IMG/VR virus record: IMGVR_UViG_3300025108_000176
Span: 1-35,919 of that record
Reading direction: 5' to 3' (one strand)
DNA from: a virus
Length of the DNA: 35,919 nt
Below the pieces are notes generated by a model that was given only the letters and a program-made list of their open reading frames with translations, was not told where the DNA came from and did not search any database. Position numbers and translations under genes: made by a program. Shown here one piece after another: positions 17,298 through 18,804 of the stretch; position 1 is the first letter of the stretch; each line of letters begins with the position of its first letter.

Positions 17298-17472
17298 GTT
17301 TGTTGATGATCTTTGCCACTTTGCCGTATGTCTTCCATAGATCGGGGAACGATTGCTTGAGAATCAAAAACTGCTCCCTGGTTCCTTCTTTTGCAGCAGT
17401 TCCGATTGCTATTGCAAATTTGCCTCCGTAGCGAATCATTGCCTCGATTGTTTCAGCGTCATGTTTTGTCAT
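17287..17472 (-). CDS. Hypothetical helical protein (61 aa)
   Basis: Start ATG 17472 is chosen because it overlaps the TGA of the DGQHR gene as ATGA. A longer frame from 17523 is unlikely. The protein is mainly helical (DAETIEAMIRYGGKFAIAIGTAAKEGTREQFLILKQSF, then WKTYGKVAKIINKLE). The GGKFAIAIGTAA stretch is mildly hydrophobic. No family recognised. Confidence 0.55.
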   Translation of the reverse strand: MTKHDAETIEAMIRYGGKFAIAIGTAAKEGTREQFLILKQSFPDLWKTYGKVAKIINKLES

Positions 17473-18509
17473 AAAATCATGAGCTTTATTTTCCAACCAG
17501 TGTAGCCCAATTGATCCAAACAAGATTCGATTGACATATGGTTTTTAGGGTTATCGACCATCTCCATTTGATCCGTTTTTGATGAGCAGTATCTCACAAC
17601 AAGGTTTTTCCCCTGCCTCCCAACTGCTGCCCCCTCTACTAGGTAACTATGCAGAAAAGGATTTTCTAAACTCACCTTATCGAGAAGCGCAGACCACATT
17701 TTATTTATGTAGTCTATGGATACAAATTCCTCAACTTTTGGTCTGTTGTAATTGTTCTGGATCAGCTTACGCTTCTTACCATCCTTCCAACACTGAAACG
17801 CCAAACGGCATGCATTGTATTGCGCCAGACGCAGTGCAGGATTGCTTGCTGCCTTTCGGTAAGTCTGGTTGATGAAGTAGTTTCGCAGTGCTAGGATCGC
17901 GCTATCGGAATCAAGCCCTATACCCGTTGCAAACTGCTCATGAAACTGTATAGCCTTCCCACCGTCAGTAGACATCGCTTCTGCCAGAAAAGACGCATAC
18001 ACAGGAGTTCTGACGAGGTTTTTCACAGCACTACCCAACCTCACCCCTTCATCGAATAATTCCGAATGGTTTTTATAAACTTCAACAACTTCTTGAGAAG
18101 TTAGCTTGTCCTCACCTGTCAGTAGAAACCTGTAAAACGCAATTGCTGCTGCTACTGCGTTTGAGTTTTTGACCTTGCTCAACTGCAATACAGATCCGCT
18201 GGTGCGTTTCCTACCACAATCGATGGTCGCAAATGTGGAATCCTCTGATGGCAGGTTTCTCACTGTAACAATTTCCTGACTCGTTCCACTTCCAATCAAG
18301 GCATGCATTCTGTGCTGTCCATCGAGGAGTCTGCCTGTGTGATCAAGCTTCACACTCTCACCGTTCAGGGTCCATCTGCCCTGTTTCATGTCCTTGATAT
18401 ATCGCTCAACATCACGCTTGCTGAGTCTTCGGTTAATGGTGTTGCCCTTAAGTGCATTCTTTGCCATTTCAGGTGTCCAGAGTTCGATCTTTACTATTGG
18501 TTCTGTCAT
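17469..18509 (-). CDS. DGQHR/ParB-like protein with a C-terminal DnaX (tau)-tail-like domain
   Basis: From ATG 18509 the protein has 346 aa. A GTG at 18518 would add three residues. Residues 1-110 fit the ParB/DndB-type fold, with RRLSKRDVERYIKDMKQGRW and the diagnostic LLDGQHR (61-67), then VTVRNLPSEDSTFATIDCGRKRTSG. Residues about 110-265 are helical (AFYRFLLTGEDKLTSQEVVEVYK, LRLAQYNACRLAFQCW). The last 75 residues read like the C-terminal domain of DNA polymerase III gamma/tau: MWSALLDKVSLENPFLHSYL, a short QGKNLVVRY strand, then MVDNPKNHMSIESCLDQLG and KIKLMI. In DnaX this part tethers the polymerase. The protein follows the DnaA-domain-IV gene, so a role in bringing the host replisome to phage DNA is plausible. 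Both domain calls are by eye, the second with less certainty. Confidence 0.65.
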   Translation of the reverse strand: MTEPIVKIELWTPEMAKNALKGNTINRRLSKRDVERYIKDMKQGRWTLNGESVKLDHTGRLLDGQHRMHALIGSGTSQEIVTVRNLPSEDSTFATIDCGRKRTSGSVLQLSKVKNSNAVAAAIAFYRFLLTGEDKLTSQEVVEVYKNHSELFDEGVRLGSAVKNLVRTPVYASFLAEAMSTDGGKAIQFHEQFATGIGLDSDSAILALRNYFINQTYRKAASNPALRLAQYNACRLAFQCWKDGKKRKLIQNNYNRPKVEEFVSIDYINKMWSALLDKVSLENPFLHSYLVEGAAVGRQGKNLVVRYCSSKTDQMEMVDNPKNHMSIESCLDQLGYTGWKIKLMIL

Positions 18510-18510
18510 T

Positions 18511-18804
18511 TTATTCACTTTCTTCTATTCGTTCGGTTATTAGTTTATGTGTGCGGTTAAAAGCCTTGTTGGTCTTCAGCAGGTGTCTAGCCTCCTGTAT
18601 CGGGTATGTGAGACTCCCTGAGTATCGGTTAAACATCCTTGCGATTTCGGTGTGACCTAAAGGGGTGTATCGATTCACTAGCTCCATTGCAGTCCATCTG
18701 GCGAGCGTGTGAGTTCGATGCCTGGAGTGTGCTTCAATGTCCTCAACTGTGATCCCGTATTCATCCGCACAGATCTCCTTAATTCTTTGCACGTAGGTTT
18801 TCAT
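18511..18804 (-). CDS. Free-standing DnaA domain IV (DNA-binding) protein
   Basis: The 97 residues cover only the DnaA C-terminal DNA-binding domain: IKEICADEYGITVEDIEAHSRHRTHTLARWTAMELVNRYTPLGHTEIARMFN. These match the order of the family: first helix, the R-x-R...AR segment, the hydrophobic MELV helix and the HTH. In host DnaA the recognition helix has the RDHTTV signature. Here the equivalent is RYSGSLTYP, so the DNA target probably differs. No AAA+ domain or domain I is present. It is likely a sequence-specific origin binder or a regulator that competes with host DnaA. Its ATG overlaps the previous stop (ATGA), and its 3' end overlaps the GTG alternative start of the next gene. Confidence 0.8.
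   Translation of the reverse strand: MKTYVQRIKEICADEYGITVEDIEAHSRHRTHTLARWTAMELVNRYTPLGHTEIARMFNRYSGSLTYPIQEARHLLKTNKAFNRTHKLITERIEESE

Follow-up and report, generated by a model that had tools for sequence, protein, structure and literature searches.

The window analysed here is the whole 35,919 nucleotides of the virus record IMGVR_UViG_3300025108_000176 from IMG/VR, belonging to a marine phage. On its minus strand lies a small gene for a protein which matches DnaA domain IV and no other part of DnaA, and which is translationally coupled (TAA, one base, ATG) to the following gene, encoding a DGQHR protein with a DnaX-like tail. The features of this locus are:

18511 to 18804, minus strand: DnaA domain-IV-only protein, 97 aa (Pfam Bac_DnaA_C, E 5e-11; NCBIfam DnaA C-terminus, 5e-10)
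18601 to 18627, minus strand: altered recognition helix RYSGSLTYP (residues 60-68) replacing RDHTTV, from reading of the sequence
17469 to 18509, minus strand: DGQHR-tau protein, 346 aa (phrog_5931 match and DnaX match of the tail)
17736 to 18509, minus strand: ParB/sulfiredoxin-like DGQHR core, residues 1-258 (phrog_5931, E 4e-56)
17472 to 17717, minus strand: captured DnaX (tau) C-terminal KH-like domain, residues 265-346 (identity to Verrucomicrobial DnaX, AF2, Foldseek)

The 346-aa protein, which would comprise 349 aa if the alternative start GTG at 18518 were used, carries the DGQHR motif at residues 63-67 and shares residues 1-258 with phrog_5931, a widespread early phage family with 87 phage records. 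This profile match confirms the DGQHR/ParB-like N-terminus proposed in an earlier sequence-only reading of this DNA. The score with TIGR03187 (DGQHR domain) is 15.5 bits, below the curated cut-off of 58.85. AF2 models residues 1-250 with a pLDDT mostly of 84-98, and the top Foldseek matches of this model are CDP-bound ParB, Noc and Srx, all of them weak (best E 0.05), suggesting a weak resemblance to a ParB/Noc/Srx-like fold. The core is under purifying selection, with a dN/dS of 0.09 between the window and the sibling phage L002. Members of phrog_5931 stop near residue 260, whereas the present protein is longer by about 80 C-terminal residues, and this tau tail was seen in no other member.

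When the whole protein was compared with bacterial genomes, four Verrucomicrobial loci matched, and only over residues 268-344 (48-56% identity, E 1e-19 to 1e-24). Each of these is a full-length dnaX gene with ybaB and recR behind it, in a dnaX-ybaB-recR operon. With DnaX of one Verrucomicrobial family, which is Pedosphaera-like and represented by 11 genomes among those compared, the tail shares 53-56% identity (E about 1e-24). Within the order 177 of 293 genomes match the tail, the best seven all belonging to one family, and a profile built from the tails also recovers DnaX of the order. The donor was ranked by match score, as a tree of the tail gave no placement because the domain is too short. 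With Pfam DnaX_C (PF20964) the tail reaches 18.3 bits (E 0.002), which is under the cut-off; genuine Verrucomicrobial DnaX scores no better (16.7 bits), so that the low score reflects a limit of the model, and the Pfam cut-off was rejected as the sole basis for assessing the tail. We conclude from these comparisons that the DnaX match is not a chance one, and the C-terminus, which had been the weakest part of the sequence-only reading, proved to be its strongest. A PDB sequence search with the tail gave no match. Within IMG/VR the tail occurs only in the window and in the near-identical contig L001; none of 80 IMG/VR relatives of the DGQHR core carries it, and no second tau tail was found in the phage records searched.

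The AF2 model of the tail (five sequences; pLDDT 93.7, pTM 0.83) has a KH-like alpha-alpha-beta-beta-alpha-alpha-beta fold. In agreement with the DnaX-like fold expected earlier, the nearest solved folds found by Foldseek are DnaA domain I (TM 0.74) and the tau subunit of the E. coli Pol III complex, followed by the helicase loader DciA and the NMR structure of tau domain V, although none of these matches reaches E 0.001. DnaA domain I, tau and DciA are all replisome adaptors. By sequence, length and predicted fold the tail is thus identified as a complete, host-derived DnaX (tau) C-terminal domain corresponding to E. coli tau domain V, which in the host sits on the AAA+ clamp loader and in the phage on a ParB-like phrog_5931 protein. 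It differs from host DnaX at its end. A helix of the form D[PA]LIxxALxxFxG terminates all 37 of the 37 listed DnaX sequences of the host order, as read by eye, and is absent from the phage tail. This helix is probably the counterpart of the segment by which E. coli tau binds the polymerase. In E. coli the globular part of domain V is in contact with the fingers of the polymerase (PMC4703070), whose tail is bound by roughly the final 23 residues of tau (PMC4703070, PMC11470591). The earlier suggestion that the C-terminus mimics DnaX in order to attract the replisome therefore holds as far as a real, host-derived tail is concerned, but simple tethering of the polymerase is doubtful because the terminal helix is missing.

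The history of the tail can be followed in L002, whose terminase is 97-98% identical to that of the window and which carries two deletions in this region. The first creates an in-frame fusion of residues 1-70 of DnaA-IV with the DGQHR protein; the second removes most of the tail:

17494 to 17722, minus strand: 229 nt absent from L002 (tail deletion; comparison of window and L002)
17287 to 17523, minus strand: 78-aa ORF overlapping the end of the tau tail (ORF list)

The scar in L002 retains the final tail codons out of frame (WKVKLMIL*, compared with WKIKLMIL* in the window); in the window this DNA specifies the final strand of the tau domain. Its persistence makes it most likely that the tail was present in the common ancestor, and the tail would accordingly be older than the split between the window and L002. 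The small ORF overlapping this stretch is kept in both phages and could explain the conservation of the scar, but not its DnaX match. Compared with host DnaX, the tail shows saturation at silent sites but retains about half of the residues and 15 of 18 DnaX positions conserved in the order, so that it has apparently been maintained by selection; part of this constraint may stem from time spent in an unsampled host lineage. On the other hand, the gene of L002 has stayed open and under purifying selection despite the loss of the tail and of half the recognition helix, and both are therefore dispensable in some lineages.

The 97-aa protein was correctly recognised in the sequence-only reading as DnaA domain IV alone, as its match to Bac_DnaA_C (42.8 bits) lies above the cut-off of 31.5; with the DnaA-like replication initiation proteins of phrog_27829 it matches at E 0.025 only. 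Like its counterpart in DnaA it is a helix-turn-helix domain, but it stands alone, and the alteration of its recognition helix was verified as well: NRYSGSLTYP stands at the place of GGRDHTTVLHA, the base-contacting signature DHTTV having given way to YSGSL. A dN/dS of 0.07 between the window and L002 indicates purifying selection. DnaA boxes resembling TTATCCACA show neither an excess nor a cluster within the window, and the altered helix may have a different target of its own. A capture of this domain from the same host was also considered and rejected, its identity to DnaA domain IV of two genomes of the family being 16%.

Besides this pair the phage has an initiator of its own, with a candidate origin:

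19683 to 20597, minus strand: lambda-O-like replication initiation protein, 304 aa (phrog_270, E 1e-18)
20225 to 20283, no strand assigned: 4.9 perfect tandem 12-bp iterons (CTTTACTATCTA) inside the initiator gene, candidate origin (repeat search)
20198 to 20213, no strand assigned: AT-rich palindrome adjoining the iterons, candidate unwinding element (sequence)

The phrog_270 initiator is conserved in the relatives L002, L009, L017 and L022 and was found in every close relative in which the region was recovered, including phages that have neither DnaA-IV nor the DGQHR protein. The iteron array with its core AGTAAA is retained in relatives even where amino acids change, e.g. in L022. As in lambda O-type origins, iterons and an AT-rich stretch lie within the initiator gene; here, however, the iterons are 12 bp long in about five tandem copies, and no P-like loader was identified. 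The initiator gene with these elements is the better origin candidate than sites of the DnaA-IV protein. The sequence-only reading, which noted the absence of a phage polymerase, helicase or primase from the window, erred in missing this replication gene; a polymerase was not seen in the 35.9 kb. A search for the initiator in the 11 genomes of the donor family, run without a positive control, gave no match.

Between a 254-aa gene and the dNMP kinase gene the phages of this group differ in content. In the window and L001 this slot holds DnaA-IV and DGQHR-tau, and the following element may close the cassette:

16881 to 16908, minus strand: terminator-like hairpin before the dNMP kinase gene (consensus match only)

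The slot of L002 holds a cytosine-5 methylase adjoining the in-frame DnaA-IV/DGQHR fusion created by the deletion (L002:5078-6795), L017 to L020 have neither DnaA-IV nor DGQHR, with an unrelated ORF in the slot of L017, and L022 has a different DnaA domain-IV protein (DRSAV; L022:6564-7061) without a DGQHR gene. As the pair is missing or replaced in relatives, it is accessory. The expectation that both genes form a general system was not borne out: a DnaA-IV gene lies within 3 kb of 2 of the 80 DGQHR relatives and of none of 40 terminase loci, a difference that is not significant, and general co-occurrence was rejected. L126, a distant DGQHR relative (42%), carries a DnaA-IV gene some 1 kb upstream, and one is present in L205 as well.

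Terminase relatives of the phage family are found in the bacterial order of the tail donor with up to 504 bits, whereas a control order yielded only fragments of at most 36 bits. A first genome scan with a terminase alignment had given no match, and the genomes searched yielded no prophage of this phage. Contigs with terminase and portal relatives of the family occur in three Verrucomicrobial genomes (L231, L232 and L233 in G404, G373 and G315, respectively). Taken together, the donor family of the tail and the terminase relatives in that order make a Pedosphaera-like Verrucomicrobium the likely host, and the tail thereby points to the host of the phage family.

A second capture was found on the bacterial side. 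In genome G495 (contig C30, L120:4936-5874) a 312-aa protein combines a TIR domain of the PADLOC family TIR-TM (residues 1-181, E 1e-64) with a C-terminal tau domain that matches the tail profile at E 1e-11 and is 38% identical to the DnaX of the same genome, which encodes an ordinary DnaX besides. The fusion was seen only in G495 among the genomes searched. It also lacks the terminal DnaX helix, and it is a separate, independent capture of the tau domain.

In our view the best explanation, to which we assign a probability of roughly 0.45, is that the DGQHR-tau protein is an accessory factor that attaches to the host replisome, or competes there, via its captured tau module and is not the phage's origin recogniser. 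In this view a phage DGQHR protein with a ParB/Srx-like fold has captured the globular KH-like domain from DnaX of a Pedosphaera-like Verrucomicrobium; the tail would then dock on the tau partner in the host replisome, be it the fingers region of polymerase alpha or another clamp-loader or helicase contact, and might bring the ParB-like DNA-associated part and the co-translated DnaA-IV partner to active forks. As the terminal polymerase-binding helix is missing, the docking would be weak or competing, making the protein an accessory modulator of replication, whether of the host or of the phage. The observations establish what the tail is, which family donated it, its predicted fold, the accessory nature of the pair and the independent initiator with its iterons, while docking, the choice of partner and a joint action with DnaA-IV belong to the proposed model. 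This explanation is supported by the DnaX identity of the tail to one family, by its confident model with replisome adaptors as nearest folds, by the residues conserved at saturated silent sites and the presence of the tail before the L002 split, by the ParB/Noc/Srx-like core and its coupling to DnaA-IV, fused in frame in L002, and by terminase relatives in the donor's order. The contact of globular E. coli tau with the polymerase fingers (PMC4703070) is in line with it, and phage SPP1 offers a precedent, in which the helicase gp40 binds host DnaX and thereby recruits the host replisome (PMC6316719). Both phages would reach the host replisome through DnaX, but in SPP1 a phage protein binds tau, whereas here the protein carries a piece of tau itself, for which no description was found in the literature searched. 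The missing helix, the weak ParB similarity of the core, the restriction of the tail to the window and its near-identical contig, and the fact that L002 does without it speak against this explanation. DGQHR-tau offers a testable handle on the contact of a phage with the replication machinery of uncultured Verrucomicrobia; it also prompts one to ask which partner the globular tau domain has once the polymerase-binding end is gone.

The retention of only the globular docking part would also suit a decoy that competes with host DnaX for its partner, uncouples host forks and releases host replication proteins for use by the phage. Inhibition of such proteins by phages has precedents, e.g. a viral protein in complex with DnaI of S. 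aureus (PMC4887207), and we regard this as a real, if lesser, possibility; a simple competitor, however, needs neither a fused ParB-like core nor a DnaA-IV neighbour, and the phage itself probably relies on the host polymerase. The model of the sequence-only reading, in which DnaA-IV would label the origin of the phage and the tau tail recruit the host polymerase, starts from two domains that are indeed real, replication-related and co-translated, so that it is partly supported, but it has become improbable as a whole in view of the separate initiator and conserved iterons in relatives without the pair, the lack of DnaA-box enrichment, the changed recognition residues and the missing terminal helix. 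Still more improbable is a passive domain gained by illegitimate recombination and without any role. L002 lost the tail without destroying the gene and the tail occurs in one genotype only, as such a hitch-hiker would predict, yet the predicted fold is intact, conserved residues are kept despite saturated silent sites and the ancestor had the tail.

The variable content of the slot, with a cytosine methylase in L002 and an unrelated ORF in L017, suits a further explanation, in which the cassette is an accessory prophage gene set directed against other phages or answering host defences at forks, the tau domain serving as fork-targeting or decoy part as in the TIR-tau protein of G495, where a protein of a PADLOC defence family has independently captured the same domain. 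As a PADLOC search of the phage proteins gave no match and the TIR-tau fusion is found in one genome only, we consider this rather unlikely. It is a similarly speculative idea that phages and bacteria alike might use the globular tau C-terminal domain for docking or as a decoy in their conflict, the phage ParB-like fusion reaching or displacing the replisome and the bacterial TIR fusion watching it for attack. The parallel TIR fusion suggests in any case that the tau domain is possibly a target worth guarding.

Two minor observations concern neighbouring genes. The cassette of the window also encodes a small cysteine-rich protein at 17085-17297 (CPDCGELK...CLYCKKCK), and a similar small protein is present at L126:5504-5668. 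In addition, on a Roseibium contig (L082:4845-6556) a DGQHR protein has a true ParB-like protein immediately behind it, and next comes a gene resembling DnaD-type initiators.
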